From Acidimicrobiales bacterium (GTDB taxonomy: Bacteria; Actinomycetota; Acidimicrobiia; Acidimicrobiales; VFJN01): 49,512 nt of DNA. The stretch covers positions 1 to 49,512 of the forward strand of contig DATHJB010000012.1 in NCBI GenBank assembly GCA_035316325.1, given 5' to 3'. A program made the position numbers and the translations under genes. Each line of letters begins with the position of its first letter. Position 1 is the first letter of the stretch. Shown here piece by piece: positions 5,014 through 38,882 of the stretch. The notes under the pieces were generated by a model. That model did not search any database. It had not been told where the DNA came from and saw only the letters and a program-made list of their open reading frames with translations.

Positions 5014-6222
5014 ATGGGCCTCGACGAGCGGGACTTCCCGATGATCGTGAGCGTCGACGACCACGTGGTCGAACCGGCGCACGTGTGGTCGACGTGGCTG
5101 CCCCGGCGGTTCCGCGACCGGGGCCCCCGGGTGGAGCGGCGGGGCATCGGGGCCATGCGCCACGTCGGCGGCGGCGCCTACGAGCAGTCGTTCGACCCCG
5201 ACGGCCCGCAGGCCGACTGCTGGATCTACGAGGACCTCGTCTACATCCACAAGCGCCACGTGGCCGCCGTGGGCTTCGACCGCGACGACATGACGATGGC
5301 GCCGATCACCTACGACGAGATGCGCGACGGCTGCTACGACCCCCGGGCCCGGGTCGCCGACATGGAGCTGAACCACGTCGAGGCGTCGCTGTGCTTCCCC
5401 ACCTTCCCCCGCTTCTGCGGCCAGACCTTCACCGAGGCGAAGGACCGGGAGCTGGGCGAGGCCTGCGTGCACGCCTACAACGACTGGATGGTCGAGGAGT
5501 GGTGCGGCGACTCGGGCGGCCGGCTCGTCCCCCTGACCATCGTGCCGCTGTGGGACGCCGAGCTGGCCGCCGCGGAGGTGCGCCGCAACGCCGCCCGGGG
5601 CGTCCACGCCGTGTGCTTCAGCGAGATCCCCGCGCACCTCGGCCTGCCGTCGATCCACTCGGGGTCCTGGGACCCGTTCTTCGCCGCCTGCGCCGAGACG
5701 GCCACCGTGGTCAACATGCACATCGGCTCGTCGTCGCGCATGCCGGCCACGTCGGGCGACGCCCCCACGGGGGTGGCCGCCACGCTGAGCTTCAACAACG
5801 CCATGGCGTCGATGAGCGACTGGCTGTTCTCCGGCAAGCTCGTGCAGTTCCCCGACCTGCGCCTGGCCTACAGCGAGGGCCAGATCGGCTGGATCCCCTA
5901 CATCCTCGAGCGGGCCGACACGGTGTGGGAGGAGCACCGGGCGTGGGCCGGCACGAAGGAGCTCGTGCCCGAGCCGCCCAGCACCTACTACTACCGCCAG
6001 GTGTTCGGCTGCTTCTTCAGCGACCAGCACGGCATCGACAGCATCGACAAGGTCGGCGTCGACAACACCACCTTCGAGACCGACTACCCCCACACCGACT
6101 CCACGTGGCCCCACACGAAGAAGATCGCCATGGAGATGACCGCCGGCCTCGACCCCGACGTCATCCGCAAGATCATGCGGGGCAACGCCATCCGCATGCT
6201 CTCCCTCGACCTCGCCCCGTGA
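5014..6222 (+). CDS. Amidohydrolase_2 (ACMSD-like) family metal-dependent hydrolase/decarboxylase
   Basis: 402 aa from the ATG at 5014 (MGLDERDFPM); the frame extends 10 codons upstream without a better site. The first metal-site motif is VDDHVVEP near residue 15, and the C-terminal motif is ETDYPHTDSTWP, with the Asp/His expected of the TIM-barrel amidohydrolase_2 family. In that family, members hydrolyse C-N bonds or decarboxylate aromatic and vinylogous acids (ACMSD, 2,6-dihydroxybenzoate decarboxylase types). Related copies are common beside CoA-dependent degradation genes in actinobacteria. It is followed after 36 bp by the P450, but the palindrome between them suggests the P450 has its own promoter. 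Confidence 0.85.
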   Translation: MGLDERDFPMIVSVDDHVVEPAHVWSTWLPRRFRDRGPRVERRGIGAMRHVGGGAYEQSFDPDGPQADCWIYEDLVYIHKRHVAAVGFDRDDMTMAPITYDEMRDGCYDPRARVADMELNHVEASLCFPTFPRFCGQTFTEAKDRELGEACVHAYNDWMVEEWCGDSGGRLVPLTIVPLWDAELAAAEVRRNAARGVHAVCFSEIPAHLGLPSIHSGSWDPFFAACAETATVVNMHIGSSSRMPATSGDAPTGVAATLSFNNAMASMSDWLFSGKLVQFPDLRLAYSEGQIGWIPYILERADTVWEEHRAWAGTKELVPEPPSTYYYRQVFGCFFSDQHGIDSIDKVGVDNTTFETDYPHTDSTWPHTKKIAMEMTAGLDPDVIRKIMRGNAIRMLSLDLAP

Positions 6223-6239
6223 CCCCTCGCCACCACTGT

Positions 6240-6257
6240 CCATAGTGGTTACTATGG
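6240..6257. promoter_or_regulatory. Operator Op1, 18-bp palindrome before the P450
   Basis: CCATAGTGGTTACTATGG: perfect 7-bp arms around GGTT. It is the best copy of a motif found in four promoter regions of this window. TACTAT (6250-6255) inside the right arm resembles a -10 box placed 7 bases before GTG 6262. Transcript and translation start may therefore coincide (leaderless), with the repressor covering the -10. Confidence 0.75.
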
Positions 6258-6258
6258 T

Positions 6259-7455
6259 GTGGTGAGCCCTCTCCTCTACGACCCGTCGTCCTACGCCCTG
6301 CACGACGACCCGTTCCCGACCTACCGGCGACTGCAGGCCGAGGCGCCGCTCTTCCGCAACGAGGAGCTCGGGTTCTGGGCGCTCACCCGCTTCGACGACG
6401 TGATCGGCGGCCTGGGTGACCCCGCCACCTACAGCTCCGCCCAGGGCACGCTCGTCGAGCACATCCAGAGCACCGACCCGCCGCCGGACATGATGATCTT
6501 CGCCGACCCGCCCCACCACGACGTGCTGCGCAAGCTGGTCAGCCGGGCGTTCACCCCGCGGCGGATCGCCGACATGGAGGCCAAGGTCCGCACGATGTGC
6601 GACGACTGGCTCGACCCCCTCGTGGAGGCCCGGGGCGGCGAGGTGGTGGCCGACCTGGCCGGCCTGCTGCCGATGGCCGTGATCGGCGCCCTGCTCGGCG
6701 CGCCGCCCGAGGACAACGCCCGCCTCAAGGCGCTGTCGGACCGGCTGCTGCACCGGGAGGACGGGTCGGTGGCAAGGCCCGAGGACGCGGCTGTGGCGGG
6801 CGCCGAGCTGTGGATGTACTTCAGCGAGCTGGTCGCCGCCCGGCGGGCCGCCCCTGGCGACGACATGATGACCGCCCTCGTCGAGGCCGAGATCCCCGAC
6901 GACGCCGCCGACGGCGCGCCCCGGCGCCTCACCGAGGACGAGATCGTGTACTTCTGCCTACTGCTGGGGGTGGCGGGCAACGAGACGACGGCCAAGATGA
7001 TCGCCACCGGCACCGTGGTGCTGGCCGAGTTCCCGGACGAGCGGGCGCGGCTGGCCGCCGACCCCGGGCTCTGGCCCGGCGCGGTGGAGGAGCTGCTGCG
7101 GTTCGACCCGCCGTCGCACTACCAGGGCCGCGTCACCACCCGGCCGGTGGTGTGGCACGGACACGAGGTCGCCGAGGGCGAGATCGTCCTGCTGGTCAAC
7201 GGCGCGGCCAACCGCGATCCGGCGGCCTTCGACGAACCGGGCCGCTTCGTCGCCGACCGGCGCATCGAGCGGCACCTGGCCTTCGGGCACGGCGTCCACT
7301 ACTGCCTGGGCGCCGCGCTGGCTCGGCTGGAGACCCGGGTCGCCCTGGAGGAGCTGGTGCGCCGCTTCCCCGACTACGAGGTCGACCGCGGCGGGATCGA
7401 GCGGTTCCACTCGACCAACATCCGCGGCCTGTCACGCGTGCCGTTCGCCGCCTGA
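6259..7455 (+). CDS. Cytochrome P450
   Basis: 398 aa, the normal length for a soluble bacterial class I P450. Motifs: I-helix oxygen-binding AGNETT (239-244), K-helix ExxR as E278-L-L-R281, and heme loop FGHGVHYCLG (342-351) with the heme-ligating Cys349. It would hydroxylate a hydrophobic substrate using electrons from a ferredoxin or similar protein; no ferredoxin or reductase gene adjoins it. Start is GTG 6259 or GTG 6262: LLYDPSSYALHDDPFPTYRRL is the usual N-terminus, so there is no room for a later start. Operator Op1 ends 1 base before the start. The 3' end overlaps the convergent SDR gene by 24 bp. Confidence 0.93.
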   Translation: MVSPLLYDPSSYALHDDPFPTYRRLQAEAPLFRNEELGFWALTRFDDVIGGLGDPATYSSAQGTLVEHIQSTDPPPDMMIFADPPHHDVLRKLVSRAFTPRRIADMEAKVRTMCDDWLDPLVEARGGEVVADLAGLLPMAVIGALLGAPPEDNARLKALSDRLLHREDGSVARPEDAAVAGAELWMYFSELVAARRAAPGDDMMTALVEAEIPDDAADGAPRRLTEDEIVYFCLLLGVAGNETTAKMIATGTVVLAEFPDERARLAADPGLWPGAVEELLRFDPPSHYQGRVTTRPVVWHGHEVAEGEIVLLVNGAANRDPAAFDEPGRFVADRRIERHLAFGHGVHYCLGAALARLETRVALEELVRRFPDYEVDRGGIERFHSTNIRGLSRVPFAA

Positions 7456-9708: not shown

Positions 9709-9719
<11 letters not shown>

Positions 9720-10770
9720 AGAGCCGCGACGCGTTGCCGGCGACGATGAGGTCGCGCTCGTCGTCGGGGATCCCGGCGAAGTTCTTCTCGACGATCGCGT
9801 GCGAGTTGGGCCACGACGTCGCCGGGTGCGGGAAGTCGGTGGACCACATGATCCGGTCGACGCCGATGTCGTGGCGGTAGCCGAGGCCGCGGGGGTCGTC
9901 GACGAACGTGAGGTACATCTGCCGGTGGAAGTAGGCGCTCGGCTTGTCGGTGAGGCCCGGGAAGTCGTAGGGACCGGCCGCCATCGAGTCGAGGACGTCC
10001 AGGTAGTGCGGCACCCAGCCGAGGCTCGGCTCGACGAGGACGATCTTGAGCTTCGGGAAGCGCTCGAGCACGCCGGGCAGGATCCAGAAGCCGATCGTCT
10101 CGGCCAGGCGCATGGCCGGCTGCGAGGTGAAGATGCCCTTCTGGGGCGTCGGGTCACGGCGCAGCAGCTCGAACAGCGACTTCACGAGGCCGAGGTGCTG
10201 GCTGATCGACATCCCGGTCTCGGAGATCGCCGACCAGACGGGGTCGTAGCGCTCGTCGTGGTACTCGGCCAGGCCGACCTCGGACGGGAACGTGGGGATG
10301 TGCACCGCCCGGGCACCCTCGGCGGCCAGGGCGTGCACCTGCTTGACGGAGTAGTCGATGTCGATGAGCGGCACCTGGTACGCCGGCACGAGCCGCGAGG
10401 GGTCGGCCTTCGAGAAGTCGAGGAGGACGCGGTTGAACGCCTCGGACGCCTCCTTCCAGCCCTCGCGCATGTGGGGGTAGTGGCGGAACGCGCTGACCTC
10501 GCTGTAGAGGACCTCGGCGTCGACGCCGTCACGGTCCATCGCCTGCAGGCGGGCGACCGGCTCGCTGTAGCCGGGGTTGGTGAACGCCTCGTGGCTGAAA
10601 CCCGCCGCCAGCACCTTGGGATCGGTGTCACCGAACTCCCGGCGGTGCTCGGCGTCCTCGGCCGCGACGGCGTCGTCCCAGACCGTGTGGAACTTCGACG
10701 CCAGGTTGGCCTTGATCTGCTCGGGCTCGATGCGGACGTGCGAATCGACCGAGATCAGCTTGGTGCTCAT
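9709..10770 (-). CDS. Amidohydrolase_2 (ACMSD-like) family protein
   Basis: 353 aa from the ATG at 10768-10770, preceded by an AGGGGGG Shine-Dalgarno; the long open frame upstream is spurious. Metal-site motifs: VDSHVRIEP near residue 8 and WSTDFPHPATSWPNS near the C-terminus. It is the same family as the protein at 5014-6222 but a diverged paralogue. Two such enzymes in one cluster suggest successive hydrolysis or decarboxylation steps, or different substrates. It leads the minus-strand operon with ALDH and SDR, and its promoter region carries operator Op2, shared with the divergent desulforedoxin/ligase/TetR operon. Confidence 0.87.
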
Positions 10771-10807: not shown

Positions 10808-10825
10808 CCATAGTGACTGCTATGG
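10808..10825. promoter_or_regulatory. Operator Op2, 18-bp palindrome in a divergent promoter region
   Basis: CCATAGTGACTGCTATGG: 6-bp perfect arms (CCATAG/CTATGG), identical spacing to Op1 and Op4. It lies 38 bp upstream of the amidohydrolase start on the minus strand and 48 bp upstream of the first desulforedoxin-like gene on the plus strand, so one bound protein could control both operons. Confidence 0.72.
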
Positions 10826-10872
10826 TGACGATAGCGCCGGCGAGAGCCGCCGACAAGCGCCGGAGGTGATCG

Positions 10873-11016
10873 ATGGAACCAGTGCGAACGGGGGCTCGGC
10901 TGACCTGCGCCACCTGCGGCACGCAGGTGATGGTGGTCAAGCCGCCGAGCGCCGTCCCCCACTGCTGTGGCATGCCCCTGTCGGAGGTGGGCCGCGATGT
11001 CGAACGATCTCGGTAA
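10873..11016 (+). CDS. Desulforedoxin-like mini-protein, four Cys
   Basis: 47 aa from the ATG at 10873, with GGAGGTG 6-8 bases upstream. Cys12-x2-Cys15 (LTCATCG) and the adjacent pair Cys31-Cys32 (HCCGMPL) reproduce the FeCys4 pattern of desulforedoxin and of the desulforedoxin-like N-terminus of desulfoferrodoxin. The spacing and the glycine after the second pair also agree. If iron is bound this would be a small one-electron carrier; zinc is an alternative. It is the first gene of the operon with a second mini-protein, an acyl-CoA ligase and TetR. Too short for most gene callers, but the Shine-Dalgarno and the paralogue next door make it credible. Confidence 0.7.
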   Translation: MEPVRTGARLTCATCGTQVMVVKPPSAVPHCCGMPLSEVGRDVERSR

Positions 11017-11140
11017 GCGCTACACGTGCCAGGACTGCGGCGCCATCTACCTGGTCGTGAAGGCGGGCGCCGGCACCGTCGAGTGCCACGGTCGCCCGGC
11101 GTTGCAACAGGCCGCCAAGCAGCTGCCCTCGTCGGACTGA
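10997..11140 (+). CDS. Desulforedoxin-like mini-protein, Cys3His variant
   Basis: 47 aa, overlapping the preceding gene by 20 bp in another frame. It aligns with its neighbour without gaps: YTCQDCG matches LTCATCG, VVK matches VVK, and ECHGRP matches HCCGMP. The metal site is therefore Cys11, Cys14, Cys30 and His31 in place of four Cys. That change would alter redox potential or favour zinc. The two look like a tandem duplication followed by divergence. The acyl-CoA ligase starts 1 bp after its stop, so the three are co-translated. Confidence 0.68.
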   Translation: MSNDLGKRYTCQDCGAIYLVVKAGAGTVECHGRPALQQAAKQLPSSD

Positions 11141-11141
11141 C

Positions 11142-12596
11142 GTGAACCTCGCCATCGCGCTGGCCATGGCGGCCGACGGGCACGGCGACCGGACGGCCGT
11201 GGTCGACGCCGAGCGCTCCCTCTCCTACCACCGGCTGCACGAGGTCGCCGAGACCGTGGCCGCCCGACTGCCCGACGACGCGGACACCGTGGTGGCCGCC
11301 GGCGTCCACGGCACTGCGCTGGCCGCGTCCCTGTTCGGCGCGGCGTGGGCCGGGCGCTCGTTCGCACCGGTCAACCACCGCCTGCCGGCCGACCGGGTCG
11401 CCTCCCTCGCCCGGCGTCTGGCACCCGCCCAGGGGGTCGCCGCGCCGCCCTACCTGGCGCCGCTCGACCGGGAGCTGCCCGGCAGCTGGAGCGCCGAGGA
11501 CCTGTTCGCCGACACCGGCGGGCGCGGCGCGGCGTTCGTGGAGGAGCCGGTGCGCCCGGCCGTCGTCCTCTACACCAGCGGCACGGCGGCCGAGCCGAAG
11601 GCCGCGGTCGTCGACCACGACAACCTCCTCGCCTACCTCGTGAACACCGTGGAGTACGGCGCCGCCGGAACCGACGAGGCCGTGCTGATCGCCGTGCCGC
11701 CCTTCCACATCGCCGGCGTCGCCGCCGTGCTGAGCGCGGTCTGGGCCGGTCGCCGCATCGTGGCGCTCGACGGCTTCTCCCCCGCGAGCTGGATCGACGC
11801 CGTGCGGGCCGAGTCGGTCACCCACGCCTTCGTCGTGCCGACGATGCTGGCCCGCATCGTCGAGGTCGCGGCGCCGCTCCCGTCGCTCCGCTCGCTCGCC
11901 TACGGCGGAGCCCGCATGCCGGTCCCGGTGCTGGAGCGGGCGCTCGCGCTGTACCCCCACGTCGACTTCGTGAACGCCTACGGGCTCACCGAGACGAGCT
12001 CGACGATCGCGGTCCTCGGGCCCGACGAGCACCGCGCGGGCAACCGGCTCGCGTCGGTGGGGCGGCCGGTGCCGGGCGTGGAGGTCGAGATCGTCGACGA
12101 CGGCCACGTGCCCGTGCCGCCGGGAGCCACCGGACGGGTGCGGATCCGGGGTGCCCAGGTGAGCGGCCGCTACCTGGGCGACGACCCGCGGGCTCCCGAC
12201 GGCTGGCTCACCACCGGCGACCTCGGGCACCTCGACGCCGACGGCTACCTCTACATCGAGGGCCGGTCCGACGACGTGGTGATCCGCGGCGGCGAGAACA
12301 TCGCCCCCGCGGAGATCGAGGACGCCCTGCTGCGGCACCCCGGGGTGGCGCAGGCGGCGGTCGTCGGCGTGCCCCACCCGGAGTGGGGCGAGCAGATCGC
12401 CGCCGCTGTCGTGCTCCACGCCGACGCCGACCCGCCGGCACCGGACGACCTCCGCGCCCACGTGCGGAGCCTGCTCGGCGGCCTCAAGTGCCCCGACGTC
12501 GTCGCTGTGGTCGACGACCTGCCGCTGACGGCGACGGGCAAGGTGGTGCGCCGCGAGGTGCGCCGGCTGCTGTCCGAGCGCGTCGACATAGGGTGA
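11142..12596 (+). CDS. Acyl-CoA ligase (ANL/FadD-type AMP-forming)
   Basis: 484 aa, slightly short for the family (about 500-540), with a trimmed N-terminal region. Motifs: P-loop YTSGTAAEPK (144-153), YGLTETSS (A5 region), the TTGDLG and GRSDDVVIRGGENI hinge region, and the catalytic C-terminal Lys467 in TATGKVVR. It activates a carboxylic acid to its CoA thioester through an acyl-adenylate. GTG start at 11142, 1 bp after the previous stop; no strong Shine-Dalgarno, consistent with coupling. The product of the ALDH encoded across the divergent promoter would be a logical substrate; that is inference. Confidence 0.9.
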   Translation: MNLAIALAMAADGHGDRTAVVDAERSLSYHRLHEVAETVAARLPDDADTVVAAGVHGTALAASLFGAAWAGRSFAPVNHRLPADRVASLARRLAPAQGVAAPPYLAPLDRELPGSWSAEDLFADTGGRGAAFVEEPVRPAVVLYTSGTAAEPKAAVVDHDNLLAYLVNTVEYGAAGTDEAVLIAVPPFHIAGVAAVLSAVWAGRRIVALDGFSPASWIDAVRAESVTHAFVVPTMLARIVEVAAPLPSLRSLAYGGARMPVPVLERALALYPHVDFVNAYGLTETSSTIAVLGPDEHRAGNRLASVGRPVPGVEVEIVDDGHVPVPPGATGRVRIRGAQVSGRYLGDDPRAPDGWLTTGDLGHLDADGYLYIEGRSDDVVIRGGENIAPAEIEDALLRHPGVAQAAVVGVPHPEWGEQIAAAVVLHADADPPAPDDLRAHVRSLLGGLKCPDVVAVVDDLPLTATGKVVRREVRRLLSERVDIG

Positions 12597-13270
12597 CGGG
12601 CGTGACCGACTCCGCTGCAGTTCGACGCGGCCGGCGAGCCGCCGGCGACGGCGCCGACCAGGCCACCCGCCGGGCCGTCATCGACGCCGCCGTGGCCTCG
12701 ATCCTCGAGCGGGGCTTCTACCGGGCCAGCAGCAACGAGATCGCCCGTCGGGCCAACGTGAGCTGGGGGGTCATCCAGCACTACTTCGGCACCCGCGAGG
12801 CGCTGATGCTGGCCGTGCTCCAGGACGGCGCCAGCCGGTTCGCCGACGTGGTCCGCGAGGGGTCGATCGACGGCGAGACGGCCGCCGAGCGCCTCGAGCA
12901 GCTTCTCGACATCCTGGCGCGCCACTACGGCACGCCCGAGTACCTGGCGTACATCCAGGTGACGCTGAACCTGGACCACGACCCCGCCACCAGCGCCGAG
13001 GTGCGCACCACCATGCGGGAGGTGGCCGAGCGCGCCACCGAACAGCTCAGGAGGCTGATCCGCGAGGCGCTCGGGCCCGCGGCCGGCGAGCCCGACCTGG
13101 CGACGACCACGTTCCTCGCCCTCCGGGGCTTCGTCGTGTCCCAGCAGCTCCTCGACACGATGGCCTACGACTCGACGCCACCCAAGACCGACCGCACCGC
13201 CCAACAGCGGCGGCTGCTCAGCCGGATCCTGGCCCCGTACATCGAGCAGGCCGCGTCGTCGAAGGGCTGA
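12593..13270 (+). CDS. TetR-family transcriptional regulator (candidate regulator of the CCATAGT operators)
   Basis: 225 aa from the GTG at 12593, which overlaps the ligase stop as GTGA; GTG 12602 is an alternative. The N-terminal TetR helix-turn-helix covers about residues 25-72 (AVIDAAVASILERGFYRASS, then NEIARRANVSWGVIQHYF and GTREALMLAVL). The C-terminal ligand domain is alpha-helical and not assignable. It is the last gene of an operon whose promoter carries Op2, the classic layout of an autoregulated TetR repressor that releases DNA when it binds a pathway CoA ester. That it binds Op1-Op4 is inference from position. Confidence 0.88.
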   Translation: MTGVTDSAAVRRGRRAAGDGADQATRRAVIDAAVASILERGFYRASSNEIARRANVSWGVIQHYFGTREALMLAVLQDGASRFADVVREGSIDGETAAERLEQLLDILARHYGTPEYLAYIQVTLNLDHDPATSAEVRTTMREVAERATEQLRRLIREALGPAAGEPDLATTTFLALRGFVVSQQLLDTMAYDSTPPKTDRTAQQRRLLSRILAPYIEQAASSKG

Positions 13271-21095: not shown

Positions 21096-23212
21096 AGGGT
21101 CACTCCCCCGTTGACGGCGGCGCCGGCGAACACGGTGTCGACCAGGTCAGGGCGGCGGAGCAGCTCGTCGGCGGCCCCTTCGAACACGACGCGACCCTTC
21201 TCGAGGTAGACGGCGCGGTCGCACACCGACAGGGCGATGTTCATCGACTGCTCCACCAGGACCATCGTCTGGCCCCGCTCGCGCAGCCGCTCGACCACCT
21301 CGATGAGCGACTGGACCACGATCGGTGCCAGGCCGAGCGACAGCTCGTCGATCAGCAGCACGTCGGGCTCGTGGACCAGCGCGCGGGCGAGGGCGAGCTG
21401 CTGGCGCTGACCCCCGGACAGGTCGCCGGCGACCGCGCCGAGGCGCTCGTCGAGGAACGGGAAGACCTCGACGGCTCCGTCGATGCGCCGTTGGCGCTCC
21501 TGCCGGCCGAGGTCGAGGGTGGTCAACGACAGCTCGAGGTTCTCGCGCACCGACAGTCCCGGGAAGATCCCCTCGCCGCCGCGGACGGCGACGACGCCGC
21601 GGGCGAAGCGGTACTCGGCCGTGGTGTAGGTGATCGTCCGACCGTGCAGGCGCACCACACCCCGGTCGGGCAGCATCAGCCCCAGCATCGCCCGCAGCAG
21701 CGTCGACTTGCCGGCCCCGTTCGTCCCGAGGACGGCCAGGCTCTCGCCCTGGCGCACCTCGAGGTCGCAGCCGAAGAGGACCTGCACCGGCCCGTAGGAG
21801 ACGTCGAGGTTGCGGACCTGCATCACCGGTACGTCGGAGGTCGCCGCGACGCGCTGGCGCTCGGCGTGCTCCTCCCGCATCTCCTCGGCGACGAGGGCGA
21901 TGTCGGCCGTCAGGAACCGCGATCCGTACACGATGAACGCCGCGCCGACGAGCGCGGCCGGGGGCACGACGAGGGTGAGCGCCGAGCGCTCGCCGATGGC
22001 GTCGCTCAAGGACCCGGCGAGGAGGTTCCCGAGGAAACCGCCCAGCAGGAAGATGTAGAGGCCCACGAGCGCGAACGCCTGGCTCCGCATGCGGGGCGGC
22101 ACCGCCGACGCGATCGCGGGCGACGTCAGCACGAACGCTCCCGCCTGGAGCGCGTTGGCCACGCTGTAGAGCAGCAGGAACCAGGCCGGCGCGTGCAGGC
22201 GCATGGCGACGGTGACGAAGATGCCGTAGCCGAGCAGCAGCAGGCCAGACAGGCGCAGCAACGACGGGGGGTTCTTGGTGAGGAGCCGGTCGCCGACCAC
22301 GCCGATCACCGGGATGGTGACGAGCGAGCCGCTCCACGCCAGCGCCAGCATCCAGCCCCGGGTGGAGGCGCCGTAGCCGTACTCGTCCTCGAGCACGAGC
22401 GACACCAGGTTCGGCACGCTGACGAGGGCGAAGCCGAGCACGCCGATGCCGACCGCCAGCAGGTAGAAGCTCCGGACCTTCCGGAGCCGCACGAAGGCGG
22501 CCGACAGCGAGACGGGCGGGTCGCCGGCGTCGGCATCCATGACCTCGCCGAGCACCTCCCGCTGCTCGTACTGGCCGCGCGGCGGATCGCGGAGGAAGAG
22601 GGCCCAGACGGCGAGCAGTCCGAGCGGCAGGGACAGCACCGCGAAGACCCAGCGCCAGGCCTCGGGCCCGCCGATCGCGGCGGCGACCCCACCGGCGAAG
22701 AGCGGGCCCATGAGCTGGCCGAGCGGCCGGCTGGCGCCCTCGACGGCGAAGACGCGCGCCCGGGCCCGCAGGGGGTACCCGTCGGCGAGCAGCGACGACG
22801 CGTTCGGCAGCCGGCTGCCGACGCCCATGCCGGTCCCCGTGAGGGCGATGCCCATGAGGAACGGGTTGGGGGCCAGGCCGGTGAACGTCGTGAACACGGC
22901 GACGGCCACGGTCCCGTAGCCCACGACCCGGGTGCGGCGCACGCGGTCGCCGAGCGCGGCGGCCGGCAGCGTCGTCAGCACCAGGGCCACACCGACCAGC
23001 CCGATCATGCCCAGCAACACGGTGTCGCTGATGTCGAACGTCGCCTGGATGTCGGGGGCCAGCACCACGGCGGCGGCCCGGGGGAACTCATCGAGGATCC
23101 CGATGAGCAGGAGCACGCCGAGCAGGCCGGCGCCGCCGCCGTCTTGGAGGGCAGCCCGCAGCGGCAGGCGGCCGGCGCTGCTCGACGGCGGCGGCGGCGG
23201 CTCGGTGGTCAC
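21092..23212 (-). CDS. MFS transporter fused to LivF-type ABC ATPase
   Basis: 706 aa. Residues about 28-435 form a 12-helix-like major facilitator domain (ALGDRVRRTRVVGYGTV is the loop between helices 2 and 3), and about 462-700 a LivF ATPase. The ATPase has Walker A GTNGAGKS (496-503), signature LSGGQ (598-602) and Walker B VLLIDE (618-623), followed by LSLGLAP, a LivF hallmark. No frame break is needed. It would supply the second ATPase of the LivHMG fusion encoded just downstream, while the MFS part could be an additional carrier or an anchor. I do not know whether the MFS part transports. GTG 23210-23212 overlaps the binding-protein stop (GTGA). Confidence 0.9.
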   Translation of the reverse strand: MTTEPPPPPSSSAGRLPLRAALQDGGGAGLLGVLLLIGILDEFPRAAAVVLAPDIQATFDISDTVLLGMIGLVGVALVLTTLPAAALGDRVRRTRVVGYGTVAVAVFTTFTGLAPNPFLMGIALTGTGMGVGSRLPNASSLLADGYPLRARARVFAVEGASRPLGQLMGPLFAGGVAAAIGGPEAWRWVFAVLSLPLGLLAVWALFLRDPPRGQYEQREVLGEVMDADAGDPPVSLSAAFVRLRKVRSFYLLAVGIGVLGFALVSVPNLVSLVLEDEYGYGASTRGWMLALAWSGSLVTIPVIGVVGDRLLTKNPPSLLRLSGLLLLGYGIFVTVAMRLHAPAWFLLLYSVANALQAGAFVLTSPAIASAVPPRMRSQAFALVGLYIFLLGGFLGNLLAGSLSDAIGERSALTLVVPPAALVGAAFIVYGSRFLTADIALVAEEMREEHAERQRVAATSDVPVMQVRNLDVSYGPVQVLFGCDLEVRQGESLAVLGTNGAGKSTLLRAMLGLMLPDRGVVRLHGRTITYTTAEYRFARGVVAVRGGEGIFPGLSVRENLELSLTTLDLGRQERQRRIDGAVEVFPFLDERLGAVAGDLSGGQRQQLALARALVHEPDVLLIDELSLGLAPIVVQSLIEVVERLRERGQTMVLVEQSMNIALSVCDRAVYLEKGRVVFEGAADELLRRPDLVDTVFAGAAVNGGVTL

Positions 23213-24573
23213 GGTTCGAGCTCGAACGTGTCCTCGTCGGTCGCCACCGTGTTGGTGGCGCCGTCGTAGATCTGCCTCGCGAAGACGGCGGGACCGGCGT
23301 GCTCGTCGGCCGACCAGTCGATCTCGCCCAGCACCGGCGGGACCCGGTAGGCCGGGAGCTCCTGGAGGGCGGCGACGAAGCGGTCACGGGTCAGGTCGCC
23401 GCCGGCCAGCGACAGGGCCGCCGCCAGCACGTCGACCTGCACGCACGTCGCGGTGATCTGGTTGTAGTCGAACGTCGCGGGCTCGATCTCGTCGCCGGTC
23501 CGGCGGGTCCAGATCTCGTGGCAGGACGCCGCGATGGGGTCGTCCGCGCCCAGCTCGGTGGCGCCGAGCGTGAAGGTCACGAACTCCTGCCCGTCGGCGA
23601 TCTCGCGGGTGCCGAAGCGGTCGGCGAACACCTCGTTCGACGAGTTGGCCGAGATCGGCGCCGAGATGAACCGGGGCGAGAGGCCCTGGGCGTCGAGCTC
23701 GGTCTCGATCCCCGTGTGGTTGGTGTTCTGCACGAACATCAACACCGTGTCGACCTCTTGGCTGGCGAAGTCGGTCGCCGCGGAGGTCAGCACCGTGTTG
23801 CCCTCGGGGTCGCTGGGGCCGGCGTAGTCGGTCCGGTAGGCGGTGTAGTCGACACCGGCCTCGTCGAGCATCGGCAGCACGGTCTCCTCGACGGCGTCGC
23901 CCTGGTTGGGGAAGACGCTGCCGTACCAGACGCCGACCTTGCCCTCCAGGGCGCCGTCGTCGAGAGCGTGCTGGACCGTCGCCGCGTACTGCTCCTCGAG
24001 CACGGGGAACCGCGTGAACAGCAGGCCCTCCGAGTCCTCCAGGTCGGCCTCGGTCACGTCGGCGCCCGTGTAGGCCGGCACCCCGGCATCGGTGAGGCAG
24101 AGGACCTCGTCGTAGGTGGCCGTGTTCACGACGAGGTTGGACCGGTCCTCGGTGGCCTCGACGCAGGCCTGGCCGCCCTGGGCCTGCAGGACGTCGTAGA
24201 CGACCCGCTGGACGTCGACCGTGCGGCCGCAGACGCCGCCGTTCTCGTTCAGCTCGTCGGCGAAGACCTCGTAGGTCTCGGTGGGGTCGACCCCGGCGAC
24301 GGTGAATCCGATCTCGGCGAGCGCAGTGAAGTCGATGCTCAACGTGGCCACGTTCACCGAGTCGGCGCTGACGCCGTCGTCGTCGCTGGCCACGTTGTCG
24401 CCGGAGCACTCGACCGGTTGCAGTCGCCCGACGTCGTCGACGGTGACCTCTCCGGTGAAGTCGGCGTCTCCGCCGGCCGGAGCGTCGCTCCCCGAACCTT
24501 CGTCGTCGTCGCCACCACACGCTGCCATCAGCAGCGCGCCGCACGTGAGCGCCGCGAACAACCGTCTCCTCAT
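23209..24573 (-). CDS. Substrate-binding lipoprotein of the fused ABC transporter (type I periplasmic fold)
   Basis: 454 aa from the ATG at 24571-24573, with AGGGGGA 4 bases upstream. A lipoprotein signal peptide is clear: MRRRLFAALT then LLMAAC with Cys19 as the lipidated residue, then an acidic, Gly/Ser-rich linker. The rest is a Peripla_BP_6 (LivJ-like) ligand-binding fold (ADELNENGGVCGRTVDVQRV in part). It would capture the substrate outside the membrane. It is the first gene of the seven-gene operon ending at 13277, and the degenerate operator pair Op3 sits 33-73 bp upstream. The ligand is not predictable from the sequence alone. Confidence 0.9.
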   Translation of the reverse strand: MRRRLFAALTCGALLMAACGGDDDEGSGSDAPAGGDADFTGEVTVDDVGRLQPVECSGDNVASDDDGVSADSVNVATLSIDFTALAEIGFTVAGVDPTETYEVFADELNENGGVCGRTVDVQRVVYDVLQAQGGQACVEATEDRSNLVVNTATYDEVLCLTDAGVPAYTGADVTEADLEDSEGLLFTRFPVLEEQYAATVQHALDDGALEGKVGVWYGSVFPNQGDAVEETVLPMLDEAGVDYTAYRTDYAGPSDPEGNTVLTSAATDFASQEVDTVLMFVQNTNHTGIETELDAQGLSPRFISAPISANSSNEVFADRFGTREIADGQEFVTFTLGATELGADDPIAASCHEIWTRRTGDEIEPATFDYNQITATCVQVDVLAAALSLAGGDLTRDRFVAALQELPAYRVPPVLGEIDWSADEHAGPAVFARQIYDGATNTVATDEDTFELEP

Positions 24574-24605
24574 GATTCCCCCTAGGTCACCTGAACTGCG
24601 GCTGA

Positions 24606-24646
24606 CCCTAGCAGTTACTATGGAATTTCCAAAGTAGTTGCTATGT
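24606..24646. promoter_or_regulatory. Operator pair Op3a/Op3b before the transporter-CoA-transferase operon
   Basis: CCCTAGCAGTTACTATGG (24606-24623) matches Op1 at 15 of 18 bases. CCAAAGTAGTTGCTATGT (24629-24646) matches Op2 at 13 of 18. Centres are 23 bp apart, about two helical turns, so two dimers could bind on one face. The pair fills most of the 80-bp gap between the AtuA-like gene end (24654) and the binding-protein start (24573). Confidence 0.6.
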
Positions 24647-24653
24647 GTGCAGC

Positions 24654-26399
24654 TCAGAGCAACTCTGAGGGGACCTCGACGAGCTGGGATCGCACCTGCT
24701 CGGCCAGGCTCTTGGCCTGCGGGTCGGGGCGCACGGACGAGGCGACGCCCTCGCCCAGCAGCCCGACGACCACGAAGTTGAGCGCCCGCAGGTTCGGGAG
24801 CGGGTGGCGCCGCACCTCCAGGTCGGCCGCCTCGGGCACGAGGTCCCGGAAGCGCTCCACGGTGAGCTCGGTGGCCAGCCAGCGGTAGGCGTCGTCGCTG
24901 CGGGCCCAGAGGCCGACGTTGGCGTTGCCGCCCTTGTCGCCCGACCGCCCACCGCACACCACGCCGAGCGGCACTTCCTCCGTGGCTCCCCCGGGCCGCC
25001 ACGGCGGCGGCAGCTCCGCAGCGGCGACCGGCGACCCGCCTACGGTCGTGGTGGTGGTGGTCGGCGCGGGTGGGATCCGCTCCCGGGCGCCGTCGGGCAG
25101 CACCACCGCGTGGTCGACAGCGGCTGCCGGCACCAGCGCCGGCCAGTACACGCCGTACTCGGCGGCGTCGGTGGGCGGCGTCGTGGCGTAGGCCCCGGCG
25201 TAGGAGGCCAGCAGCAGCTCCATGACCGCGTTCGAGAAACGGCGGCCGACCTTGTCGCGGTCGCGGTCCTTCACGGTGATCCGCAGGCTCGACCCGACCC
25301 GGCGGATGTCGGACGTCCCGTACTGATCCCAGCCGCCGAGCGCCTCACCCAGCTGGGCGACGGCCCGGGCGGCCTTGTCGTCCTGGTCGAGCCCGGCGAG
25401 CTCCAGGGTCATCGTGTTGCGCCAGCCGCCGACGTGGTTGAGCGCCACCTTCAGCCGGCCCGACGGCGCCTCGCCGCGCACGCCGTCGATCCGCACCCGG
25501 TCCGGCGTCCCCTGCACCAGGCGGATCGTGTCGAAGCGGGCGACGACGTCGGGGTTGGCGTAGGCCGGCTCGGCGATCTCGTACAGCAGCTGGGCGGTGA
25601 CGGTGCCGACCGTGACCGCGCCGCCGGTGCCGGGCTGCTTGGTGATCACGCTCGACCCGTCGGCCGCCACCTCGGCGACGGGGAACCCGGGCGAACGGTG
25701 ATCGGGCAGCTCCTCGGCGGCGAAGCAGTAGTTGCCGCCGGTGGCCTGCGGGCCGCACTCGATCACGTGGCCGGCCACGACGGCGCCGGCGAGGGCGTCG
25801 AGGTCGGTGGGCGACCAGCCGTGCCACCACGCCGCCGGGCCGACGACCAGCGCCGCGTCGGTCACCCGCGGCGTCACCACCACGTCGGCGTCGGCGGCGA
25901 GCCCGGCGGCGATGCCGAAGCCGCCCAGGTAGGCGTTGGCGGTCACCGGCGTGACGCCGGCGTCGGCCAGGTGCCGGCCGGTGTCGAGGTGGGCCAAGGC
26001 CTCGCCGGCGGCCTGCAGCTCGGCGAGGCGCGGCAGCAGGTCGTCGCCCTCGACCACCGCGATCCGCGGGGCGAGGCCGAGCCGACCCGACAGCTCGTGC
26101 AGCCGGCCGGCGAGCCCGTGGGGGTTGAGGCCGCCGGCGTTGGCCACCACGCGCACGCCCCGGTCGAGGCAGGTGCCGAGTGTCTGCTCCATCTGGCGGA
26201 GGAACGTGGTGGCGTACCCAGCCGTTGGGTCCTTCCGCCGCGCCTTCCACAGGATCAGCATCGTCAGCTCGGCGAGGTAGTCGCCGGTGAGGACGTCGAC
26301 GGGGTCCGGCCCCGCCAGCATCTCGGCCGCGACGGCCACGCGGTCGCCGTAGAAGCCCGAGACGTTGGCGATCCTGACCGGCGACCGCGCCGGCGTCAC
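24654..26399 (-). CDS. AtuA-family (DUF1446) acyclic terpene utilisation protein
   Basis: 581 aa. The N-terminal about 440 residues are the AtuA/DUF1446 domain (IANVSGFYGDRVAVAAEML, later GDYLAELTML and VVANAGGLNPHGLA). The C-terminal about 110 residues are the AtuA-like partner domain (CGGRSGDKGGNANVGLWAR). AtuA is required for citronellol/geraniol degradation in Pseudomonas, where it clusters with geranyl-CoA carboxylase genes; its biochemical role is still unclear. Here it ends an operon with biotin-dependent carboxylase subunits, the same association. GTG start 26397-26399 overlaps the previous stop. A Pro/Thr-rich linker (IPPAPTTTTTTVGG) joins the domains. Confidence 0.88.
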   Translation of the reverse strand: MTPARSPVRIANVSGFYGDRVAVAAEMLAGPDPVDVLTGDYLAELTMLILWKARRKDPTAGYATTFLRQMEQTLGTCLDRGVRVVANAGGLNPHGLAGRLHELSGRLGLAPRIAVVEGDDLLPRLAELQAAGEALAHLDTGRHLADAGVTPVTANAYLGGFGIAAGLAADADVVVTPRVTDAALVVGPAAWWHGWSPTDLDALAGAVVAGHVIECGPQATGGNYCFAAEELPDHRSPGFPVAEVAADGSSVITKQPGTGGAVTVGTVTAQLLYEIAEPAYANPDVVARFDTIRLVQGTPDRVRIDGVRGEAPSGRLKVALNHVGGWRNTMTLELAGLDQDDKAARAVAQLGEALGGWDQYGTSDIRRVGSSLRITVKDRDRDKVGRRFSNAVMELLLASYAGAYATTPPTDAAEYGVYWPALVPAAAVDHAVVLPDGARERIPPAPTTTTTTVGGSPVAAAELPPPWRPGGATEEVPLGVVCGGRSGDKGGNANVGLWARSDDAYRWLATELTVERFRDLVPEAADLEVRRHPLPNLRALNFVVVGLLGEGVASSVRPDPQAKSLAEQVRSQLVEVPSELL

Positions 26400-27169
26400 G
26401 AGAACTGCCCCGGCCGGCGGCCCTGGCCGGGCGGGCCGGCGAAGGCCTGGGCGATCGTGAGCCACGCGGAGGCGACGGGGCCCTCCGCGACGAGCGCCGT
26501 GTCGTCGGGGTGGCGGCGCTGGGTGACGACCAGGCAGAAGTCGAGCAGCGGGCCGCGCACCACGTCGGCCGCGCCCTCGGGCCCGAACTCGTAGCCGCCG
26601 ACCTCGACCCGCACGGGTGCCTCGGGGACCGGCCGTCCGTTGGCCCCGAAGGCGTGGGGCAGCGCCCGCCAGCCGAGGAAGGCGACGTGGCGCAGCCGGG
26701 CGGTCGGCGCCCGGGTGACGCCGAGCGCGTCGGCGACGTCCTGGCCGTGGGCCCAGGTCTCCATCACCCGCGCCGTGACCGACGACGCGACCGTCATGTC
26801 GGGGCCGTACCAGGGCACGCGCACCGACGGCCCGACGTCGAGGGCGACGGCGGCCAGGTGCTCGCCGACGGTCTCGAGCCAGGCGAGCGCCTCGGTCCCG
26901 CCCAGGTGGCGGGACGCGGCCGTGGCCCGGTCGACCAGGCCGTCGACGTCGGCGATCGCCTGGTCACGCTCCGCCCGGAAGGCGTCGGGGTCGACGATCG
27001 CCCGCGTGGCGGCCTCGTCGAACCAGGCCAGGTGGGTCACCTGGTCGAGCACCGACCAACCCGGCGCCGGCGTGGGCGTGCGCCAGCCGTCGTCGTCCAG
27101 CGACCCGACCAGGGTGACCAGGTCGGCCCGCTCCGCCAGGAGGTCGGCGCACAGCTCGTCGAGGTTCAC
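26396..27169 (-). CDS. TIGR03084-family protein (DinB/maleylpyruvate isomerase-like fold)
   Basis: 257 aa. The N-terminal part (DELCADLLAERADLVTLVGS, then PTPAPGWSVLDQVTHLAWFD) is the DinB/MDMPI four-helix fold, with candidate metal-binding His residues in QVTHLAWFD and ETWAHGQDVAD. The family occurs in actinobacteria, typically between acyl-CoA carboxylase and AtuA-like genes, which is exactly its place here. The function is unknown; mycothiol-dependent isomerase-like chemistry has been suggested for the wider superfamily. GTG 27167-27169 overlaps the carboxylase stop, and its stop overlaps the AtuA start. Confidence 0.85.
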   Translation of the reverse strand: MNLDELCADLLAERADLVTLVGSLDDDGWRTPTPAPGWSVLDQVTHLAWFDEAATRAIVDPDAFRAERDQAIADVDGLVDRATAASRHLGGTEALAWLETVGEHLAAVALDVGPSVRVPWYGPDMTVASSVTARVMETWAHGQDVADALGVTRAPTARLRHVAFLGWRALPHAFGANGRPVPEAPVRVEVGGYEFGPEGAADVVRGPLLDFCLVVTQRRHPDDTALVAEGPVASAWLTIAQAFAGPPGQGRRPGQFS

Positions 27170-29072
27170 TCGCCGCCCGCCTCGCCGACCACGACCAGCA
27201 CCTGGCCGCTCTCCACCTGGTCGCCTTCGCCGACCCGCACCTCGTCGACGGTGCCGTCGTGGGTGCTGTGGACGCCGTGCTCCATCTTCATCGCCTCCAG
27301 CACCACCAGCGCCTGGCCGGCGGTCACCCGGTCGCCGGGAGCCACCAGCACCCGCACGACCGCGCCCGGCAGGGGCGCGACCGTCGAGCCGGGCACCGTG
27401 GGCCGCTCGGGGGCCGGGAAGCGCTCGACCTCCTCCCACGTGCTGCCGGTCCCGCCACCGTCGACGTAGGCGGTGCGCCCCACCCGGTGCACGGCGTAGC
27501 GGCGGCGGACGCCCTCGACGGTGAGGTCGACGGCGGCCGTGTCGGCACGCCCCAGCTCGACGCCGACCAGCGGCGCGCCGTCGACCTCGATCTCGATGCC
27601 GCCCCGAGCGCACCGGTAGCCCACGTCGACCTGCTGCCCGCCGGTCGTGAAGGCGACCTGCTGGAGAGCCGTCGGCACGTTGCGCCACCCCGAGGGCAGC
27701 GTCGCCTGCACCGACGACGCGGCGCGCCGGACCGCGTGCCCGGCGAGGGCCGCGGCCACGGCGTGGAGCGGGTCCGGGGCCGCACGCCCGCTCAGCTCGG
27801 CGGGGTCGTGGCGGTCGAGGAAGCCGGTGTCGGTCTGCCCGGCGAGGAACTCGGGGTGGCGCAGCACCCCCACGAGGAGGTCGCGGTTGGTCGGCACGCC
27901 GTGCACCTGGGTCGACGCCAGGGCCTCGGCCAGCCGGTGGACCGCGTCGTCGCGGCGGTCGCCGACCGCGACGACCTTGGCGAGCATCGCGTCGTAGAAG
28001 GTCGACACCGACGACCCGGTCTCGTAGCCGCTGTCGACGCGCACGCCCTCGCCCGCGGGGATCGACAGCCGGGCGATGCGACCGCTCGCCGGCACGAAGC
28101 CCGCCGGCACGTCCTCGGCGTAGAGCCGCGCCTCCACGGCGTGGCCGCGGAGCACGGGCTCGACGTCCAGGCGCTCGCCCCGGGCCACCCGCAGCTGCAG
28201 CTCGACCAGGTCGAGCCCGGTGACCAGCTCGGTCACGGGGTGCTCCACCTGCAGTCGCGTGTTGACCTCCAGGAAGAAGAAGGCGCCCGTCGGGTCGAGC
28301 ACGAACTCGACCGTCCCCGCCCCGACGTAGTCGAGCGCCTTGCCGGCGGCGACCGCCGCGTCGCACAGGGCGGCCCGCAGCTCCGGGTCGACGGCGGGCG
28401 ACGGCGCCTCCTCGATCACCTTCTGGAACCGGCGCTGGATCGAGCACTCGCGCTCGAAGAGGTGCACGACGTTGCCGTGCCGGTCGCCGAAGATCTGCAC
28501 CTCGACGTGCCGCGGGCGCTCGACGTAGCGCTCGAGGAACACCGTCCCGTCGCCGAACGCGGCCGCGGCCTCCCGTTCGGCCGACGCCCGCGCCTCGGCC
28601 AGCTCGGAAGGGTCGCGCACGATGCGCATCCCCCGCCCGCCCCCGCCGAAGGCCGCTTTGACCAGCAGCGGGAACCCGTCGGACGGCAGCACCGGCACGC
28701 CGGCGTCGGCCATGAGCTGCTTGGCGGCGATCTTCGAGCCCATCGCCTCGATCGCCTCGGGCGACGGCCCCACGAACACCAGCCCGGCGTCCGCGCAGGC
28801 CCGGGCGAACGCCGCGTTCTCGGAGAGGAAGCCGTAGCCCGGGTGCACCGCGTCGGCTCCCGTGGCCGCCGCGGCGGCGAGGATCCGCTCGACGTCGAGG
28901 TAGGTCTCCTGGGCCGTGCTGCCGGGCAGTCGGACGGCCTCGTCGGCCTCGTGGGCGTGGGGCGCGTCGGTGTCGGGGTCCGAGTGGACGGCGACGGTGG
29001 CGATGCCCATGGCGCGGGCGGTGCGGAACACCCGCCGGGCGATCTCCCCGCGGTTGGCGACGAGGAGCTTCC

Positions 29073-29076
<4 letters not shown>
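27166..29076 (-). CDS. Acyl-CoA carboxylase alpha subunit (biotin carboxylase plus biotin carrier domain)
   Basis: 636 aa. The biotin carboxylase part (1-about 440) starts KLLVANRGEIARRVFRTAR and carries the ATP-grasp loop KAAFGGGGRGMR and EVNTRLQVEHPVTE. The biotin carrier domain at the C-terminus has EAMKMEH with biotinyl Lys597, 39 residues from the end as expected. It carboxylates its own biotin with ATP and bicarbonate. Its partner is the carboxyltransferase encoded immediately upstream (GTGA overlap at 29073-29076). Whether the acyl substrate is 3-methylcrotonyl-, geranyl- or another acyl-CoA is decided by the partner, not by this subunit. Confidence 0.95.
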
Positions 29077-30677
<1,601 letters not shown>

Positions 30678-31316: not shown

Positions 31317-31334
31317 CCATAGTCACGGCTATGG
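31317..31334. promoter_or_regulatory. Operator Op4, 18-bp palindrome before the ligase-methyltransferase gene
   Basis: CCATAGTCACGGCTATGG: 6-bp perfect arms, same total length as Op1 and Op2. It is 19 bp upstream of the ATG at 31354, so a bound protein would block transcription initiation. The TetR gene just upstream ends at 31310, so the ligase gene has a separate promoter here. Confidence 0.72.
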
Positions 31335-37860: not shown

Positions 37861-38745
37861 TCAGGGCAGGTTCTTCTCTGCCTGGTTCTCCCAGCTGGTG
37901 TTGGTGTTGATCTCCGGCGGGCTACCGACGTACGCCCCGCGGGCCGTCGCGTTGCCCTGCAGGGTGTACAGCAGCCAGGCGGTGAGGTAGCCGAGGTAAC
38001 CCCCTCCGTTGCCCTGGATGTTGTTGTGACCGGCGCCCTTGAGCGACGCCTTGGCGGCCGGCCCGGGGAGCTGGTTGTAGTAGCCGGTCTGACCGGCGGC
38101 GCTGGCGATGAGCCAGTCGGTGCTGCCGGTCATGAGCAGGACGGGGTTGGTGAGCGCCCCCCAGTTGGTGACGTGCTCGGGGCTGACCCACGTCGGGTTC
38201 GGATAGTTGAAAGCCACCGTGCTCTTGATGAGGCCGCCCGACAGGACCGTGGCGTTGGTCGCACCGGACGCCCCCTGCGAGTGGCCGGCCGCGGCGACCT
38301 TCGTCGTGTCGAGCTTCCCGAAGAAGGTGCTCGACGCGCTGCTGTTCTGGTTCACCAGGTAGTTCGCCCCGGCGAGCACCTCGACGCCGCTGCCGGTCGC
38401 CGTGCTGGTGCTCGCCACCACGGCGAAGCCCCAGCTGGCGAGGTGCTGCAGCACGCCCGTGTAGTTGCTCGGCGTGGCACCGGTGCCGTTGCCCCAGGTC
38501 ACGATCGGGTGGTCGACGCCACCCGCACCGAGGTTGGTCGGGTAGTACAGGACGTACGACCCGGCCGCGTCGCTGACGTTGGCCGTGCTGACGGCCCAGG
38601 TCCCGGCGACCTTGTACTGCGTCTCGATCGCCGAGGCCGCTCCAGCCGGTTGGGGCGCGAGGGCCCCCATCGACGTGATCAGGGCGGCCAAAGCCACCAT
38701 GACCGCGACGTGCCGGCGCCAACCGGCGCTGCGCGCTGCCCGCAT
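37861..38745 (-). CDS. Secreted alpha/beta hydrolase (cutinase/polyesterase-like)
   Basis: 294 aa from the ATG at 38743-38745, with GGGAG 8 bases upstream. A Sec-type signal peptide is present: positively charged MRAARSAGWRRH, a hydrophobic core to about residue 30, and a cleavage site near AGAAS (35-39). The mature domain has GHSQG with Ser156, Asp210 (GSTDW) and His240 (GAGHN). The triad and the N-terminal VLYYPTNLGAGGVDHPIV strand resemble extracellular dienelactone-hydrolase-like esterases, a group that includes cutinases and polyester hydrolases. Those classic enzymes read GHSMGG at the nucleophile, so the substrate remains open. Confidence 0.82.
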   Translation of the reverse strand: MRAARSAGWRRHVAVMVALAALITSMGALAPQPAGAASAIETQYKVAGTWAVSTANVSDAAGSYVLYYPTNLGAGGVDHPIVTWGNGTGATPSNYTGVLQHLASWGFAVVASTSTATGSGVEVLAGANYLVNQNSSASSTFFGKLDTTKVAAAGHSQGASGATNATVLSGGLIKSTVAFNYPNPTWVSPEHVTNWGALTNPVLLMTGSTDWLIASAAGQTGYYNQLPGPAAKASLKGAGHNNIQGNGGGYLGYLTAWLLYTLQGNATARGAYVGSPPEINTNTSWENQAEKNLP

Positions 38746-38882
38746 GTTGTTGTCTCCCAGATGTCCCCATGACGCCGCGGTGCGACGTCGGTTCCCCAAT
38801 AGGTCCGCCCGCCGGACGACCAGTCCGCGCCGCCAGCAGAGCGGGCGTGACCTTACGCTGTATGGCTGCGGCTCGCCCGGGC

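Follow-up and report, generated by a model that had tools for sequence, protein, structure and literature searches.

A split pair of desulforedoxin-like genes in an Acidimicrobiales genome belongs to a family co-inherited with one clade of AMP-forming acyl-CoA ligases

Two overlapping genes, each encoding a desulforedoxin-like protein of 47 amino acids, precede an AMP-forming acyl-CoA ligase gene in the 49,512-nucleotide stretch of an Acidimicrobiales bacterium analysed here (the window). We propose that their products form a split, metal-keeping accessory protein with a desulforedoxin fold that works with the adjacent ligase, and we give this reading a probability of about 0.6. The preliminary description of this DNA described the genes correctly, but the pair is no local oddity: it belongs to a large family, of which it represents a split form that keeps its metal site. 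This desulforedoxin-fold family was previously unnamed as far as our search reached, and its novelty is provisional. A literature search returned no paper that links desulforedoxin to CoA ligases, to mycobacteria or to P450, and among the desulforedoxin papers, judged by titles and abstracts in literature open without subscription, no such pair was found.

The first gene, ORF1 (10873-11016, forward strand), encodes a tail-less N-type protein with the ligand pattern CxxC...CC, and the second, ORF2 (10997-11140, forward strand), encodes a C-type protein with the pattern CxxC...CH and the C-terminal signature AAKQLPSSD. The two genes overlap by 20 nt. Four cysteines (C12, C15, C31 and C32) had been claimed for the first member and a histidine, His31, in place of the last cysteine for the second, and both claims agree exactly with the sequences (C11, C14, C30 and H31 in ORF2). 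Each gene is preceded by a strong Shine-Dalgarno sequence: GGAGGTGA at 10862-10869, upstream of the ATG at 10873, and GGAGGTG at 10983-10989, upstream of the ATG at 10997. The closest relatives are two MAG loci of Acidimicrobiales (L036 and L037), in which both ORFs are present and ORF2 is 72% and 66% identical, respectively. When the window ORFs were compared with these relatives, in-frame dN was 0.17-0.34 and dS ranged from 0.6 to saturated, giving dN/dS of approximately 0.23-0.33 wherever dS was measurable and approximately 0.1 in one comparison. Shifting the frames raised dN above dS, which was not the case in frame, and both frames are therefore under purifying selection as protein. The preliminary description had made its proposal depend on conservation in relatives, and that conservation is present. 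Chance ORFs were ruled out by the homologs, the dN/dS values and the Shine-Dalgarno sequences; ORF1 and ORF2 are real genes, conserved as a pair.

A search of genome contigs with the family tail signature ([KQ]xAK[PQ]LP[SAT]SD) yielded at least 279 relatives. The 80 kept for analysis came from Actinobacteria, Binatia, Deltaproteobacteria, Chloroflexi and a few Proteobacteria, and further copies were found on Sphingomonad and Rhodococcus plasmids, labelled "hypothetical protein" on every annotated plasmid examined. The desulforedoxin-like character noted at the outset was borne out by a profile of 22 unfused members, for which the best PDB match was desulforedoxin (1cfw/1dxg group, E = 6.9e-6), followed by desulfoferrodoxin; 1DXG and related entries are the desulforedoxin of Desulfovibrio gigas. 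The Pfam model Desulfoferrod_N (PF06397) was matched at E<0.01 by 17/22 unfused members. The window proteins scored 14.8 and 20.6 bits, under its gathering cut-off of 23 (ORF2, E = 3.4e-4), and their paralogs on contig C79 of the same genome passed it with 24.0 and 25.9 bits. ORF2 also stayed below the cut-off of the NCBIfam model TIGR00319 (E = 3.7e-5, 23.3 bits, cut-off 36.05), and ORF1 was not among the TIGR00319 matches in that profile search. The family shares with the desulforedoxin/desulfoferrodoxin N-terminal domain (PF06397, TIGR00319) the domain length and the spacing from CxxC to the vicinal CC. Unlike desulforedoxin, it shows a heterotypic gene pair, CH in the tailed member, an AKxLPxSD C-terminal tail, fused metal-free descendants and a link to acyl-CoA ligases.

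Three architectures were found: tailed Cys4 proteins that stand alone, split pairs, and tandem fusions approximately 100 amino acids long, the last being the usual form in Actinobacteria. Fused and unfused profiles match within the C-type half (hhalign, probability 99%). Metal ligands were kept by 36/36 unfused C-type domains, 31 of them Cys4 and five Cys3His, and the four-ligand site was lost in 61/61 fused C-type domains, a count that includes by inspection two Chloroflexi entries (L113 and L115) that a script had scored as separate. Four cysteines at desulforedoxin spacing are found in ORF1 and those 31 unfused domains; ORF2 has CH for CC, and the fused homologs are without any ligand. Throughout the family the tail is retained together with the GKRY motif, which in rare cases reads GKRL or GKRF.

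The preliminary description had pointed to conserved pairs elsewhere, and a separate homologous pair was found at nine other loci (C79 in the source genome itself, L036, L037, L039, L061, L067, L072, L189 and L190). Including the window, 9/10 split pairs are adjacent on one strand with a spacing of -20 to +48 nt; the eight adjacent pairs outside the window range from an 11 nt overlap to a 48 nt gap. At L189 an SDR-like ORF sits between the two members. The CxxC...CH pattern occurs in five distinct C-type members (window, L036, L037, L189 and L190), and at all five loci the first member keeps CxxC...CC. Five further family copies are present in the source genome, namely the split pair on C79, which includes a paralog of ORF1 (43.7 bits, 45%), and fused copies on C20, C60, C172 and C93. 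The fused copy on C172 (46264-47383) is followed by a 176 aa ORF resembling a truncated ligase, whose gene may have decayed or been deleted. The one on C93 (20854-22514, minus strand) stands beside an acyl-CoA dehydrogenase-like ORF, with no ligase, a possible change of partner.

The window ligase (11142-12596, forward strand, 484 aa; PF00501, 1.4e-57; PF13193, 5.7e-24) starts with a GTG at 11142, one base past the stop codon of ORF2. The start of a TetR-type regulator gene (12593-13270, forward strand) overlaps the ligase stop, in keeping with the CoA-ligase/TetR operon first reported. Fused copies usually have a ligase neighbour too; some lineages have it upstream and others downstream, so the association does not reflect a single frozen gene order. 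In a tree of 116 ligases, the family-neighbour ligases and the window ligase formed one clade (100% SH-aLRT, 40 rows), with 48/49 other ligases of the source genome outside it; its sister group (98%) consisted of Binatia and Deltaproteobacteria ligases that lie approximately 2.6 kb from a lone copy. Against family-linked ligases the window ligase scored a median of 388 bits; none of the other ligases in its genome gave more than 229 bits. That genome has 76 AMP-binding matches, and adjacency to this particular clade is therefore specific.

Across 296 actinobacterial genomes, the family and the ligase clade (threshold at least 398 bits; next-best match 250 bits) were each present in 15 genomes, and the two sets were the same (Fisher p = 1.6e-25). 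A family copy lay within approximately 100 bp of 16/18 clade ligases, and the remaining two had one on the same contig at 11 and 24 kb. In genome G302 the clade ligase begins 12 nt after the fused copy; G303 has one clade-like ligase with no tail ORF beside it. Distances between the desulforedoxin-like proteins were strongly correlated with those between the ligases (Mantel r = 0.94; shuffled maximum 0.44), which shows co-inheritance and is not evidence of contact; both the co-occurrence and the distance correlation could stem from joint operon transfer. Co-occurrence and adjacency with a single clade of adenylate-forming enzymes, the pattern by which we would recognise an accessory subunit, were both found. 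In Actinomadura physcomitrii, three near-identical units of ligase and fused partner (L079, L080 and L073) lie in one genome, which suggests, from their similarity, a recent duplication.

Within the exact subfamily of the window, the ligase is adjacent in the window only. In neither L036 nor L037 is a ligase adjacent to the pair, and the 13 kb around the C79 pair contains no similar ligase. The window pair might therefore serve another enzyme, and our confidence in the ligase-subunit reading is limited accordingly.

We hypothesize that the two domains assemble into a pseudo-dimer akin to the desulforedoxin homodimer; a hetero-dimer of ORF1 and ORF2, as first suggested, is plausible from their sequences. 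The invariant GKRY motif and the AKxLPxSD tail would dock on the ligase, and docking would aid ligase folding or the handling of substrate or CoA. Zinc or iron would only stabilise the small separate fold, a structural role that could be dispensed with after covalent fusion of the halves. Physical contact between pair and ligase is something we infer from these sequence patterns. An accessory subunit is the most economical reading because the domain, GKRY, the tail and the ligase all survive fusion and metal loss. The wider proposition, which stands in our judgement at roughly even odds, is that across several phyla a distinct acyl-CoA ligase clade has this family for its obligate partner subunit, and that two metal proteins, ancestrally a pair, became joined by fusion, after which the metal disappeared entirely and the docking tail stayed.

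Comparable arrangements exist at the level of function. MbtH-like proteins are small, and their genes sit next to, and are inherited with, that of an adenylate-forming enzyme, their partners being NRPS adenylation domains; the likeness is that of a small protein co-inherited with an adjacent adenylate-forming enzyme, and since the sequences are unrelated it is a function-level analogy only. DUF35 (Zn-ribbon OB-fold) partners of thiolases accompany one enzyme of CoA metabolism and can lose their metal ligands. They resemble the present family as small zinc-ribbon companions of a CoA enzyme with dispensable ligands, but fold and partner differ. Annotated OB-fold genes stand separately in the same clusters as family copies.

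An amidohydrolase gene (Amidohydro_2, PF04909, 2.2e-20; 9709-10770, reverse strand) is transcribed divergently from the window pair and is a conserved divergent neighbour in L036 and L037. Between it and the pair lies the operator-like palindrome CCATAGTGACTGCTATGG (10808-10825; CCATAG-N6-CTATGG), and operator-like sequences similar to it precede the pair in L036 and L037. Only four exact sites were found in the 6.37 Mb assembly: 6240, 10808 and 31317 in the window, and C214:18977. The site at 31317 is associated with a second ligase, and a variant at 24606 precedes a gene (23209-24573) for the binding protein of an ABC transporter of branched-chain type. The palindrome, which has three of its four exact genomic sites in the window, marks a small regulon, and the TetR-type protein is likely its binder; a closely similar TetR gene (6188-6868; PF00440, 2.8e-10) follows the L037 pair. 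The region 23209-30677, which includes the ABC transporter, an AtuA-family gene (24654-26465) and a carboxyltransferase (29073-30677) beside a biotin-dependent-carboxylase-like ORF (27166-29076, judged on its N-terminal sequence only), looks like acyclic-terpenoid-type acid catabolism. Because of the AtuA-family protein, the carboxyltransferase and the carboxylase-like ORF, the substrate may be a terpenoid-type acid, and the pair and its ligase would then serve a catabolic regulon under TetR control that acts on a hydrophobic acid, possibly a terpenoid one. Elsewhere in the window, an ORF at 37861-38799 (reverse strand) matches PF12740 "PETase" (PET hydrolase-like; E = 7e-12).

The preliminary description had suggested, as a speculative link, that the pair might be a hetero-dimeric desulforedoxin-type electron carrier reducing the cytochrome P450 at 6259-7455 (forward strand; PF00067, 8.3e-22), which we judge to be a co-regulated neighbour outside the ligase unit. 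Part of this stood: the same palindrome precedes both the P450 (6240-6257) and the pair, as had been claimed, the Cys4 and Cys3His sites of the pair are intact, and an orthologous P450 (72%) adjoins the pair, though in L036 only. However, the L037 genome, a MAG that is possibly incomplete, has the pair and no P450 ortholog (best match 40%), P450 matches occur near only 9/80 family loci, eight of them mycobacterial, and the metal site is gone from approximately 60 fused homologs that are still associated with the ligase. Those counts led us to reject the P450 as a family-wide partner, and the literature search returned no paper connecting desulforedoxin with P450. The missing ferredoxin neighbour had been cited in favour of a donor role. 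The source genome has approximately 28 P450 genes (33 matches) and six Fer4_15 ferredoxins, so in this genome it is nothing unusual for a P450 to lack an adjacent ferredoxin, and the argument was dismissed. A helper subunit of the ligase is likelier than a P450 electron carrier because the family is co-inherited with one ligase group; the donor idea is weak, improbable for the pair itself, and fails as a general explanation of the family.

We consider it slightly less probable still that the protein acts in the manner of LysW, as a small Zn-ribbon carrier whose C-terminal tail holds the substrate and is acylated or adenylated by the ligase. The tail is invariant at the extreme C-terminus even in metal-less copies, and there is weak profile similarity. 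The LysW model cut-offs were not reached, either by ORF2 (NF041070, E = 0.05) or by the best match in the family, a C79 paralog (PF21344, E = 0.0034, 17.4 of 27 bits), and other zinc ribbons match at least as well. Small size, zinc ribbon and extended C-terminal tail make up a marginal likeness; the family tail ends in Asp, unlike the EDWGE-type C-terminus of LysW, and the partner enzyme belongs to another class, being CoA-type with AMP-binding_C and not ATP-grasp. Equally doubtful is a role as metal- or redox-sensing partner of TetR, whose gene neighbours the pair in the window and in L037 and C79, or as a subunit of the amidohydrolase that is encoded divergently in the window and in L036 and L037, as the constant family-wide partner is the ligase.

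Acyl-CoA ligases are generally regarded as self-sufficient enzymes. The split genes score under the family cut-offs, are too short for common length filters and are missed by ordinary annotation. The clean switch that the family shows, from a metal-binding pair to a metal-free fusion, offers a natural experiment on the purpose of the metal site. If the accessory-subunit reading is true, a co-inherited small partner could explain why some ligases of this clade might fail when expressed alone.
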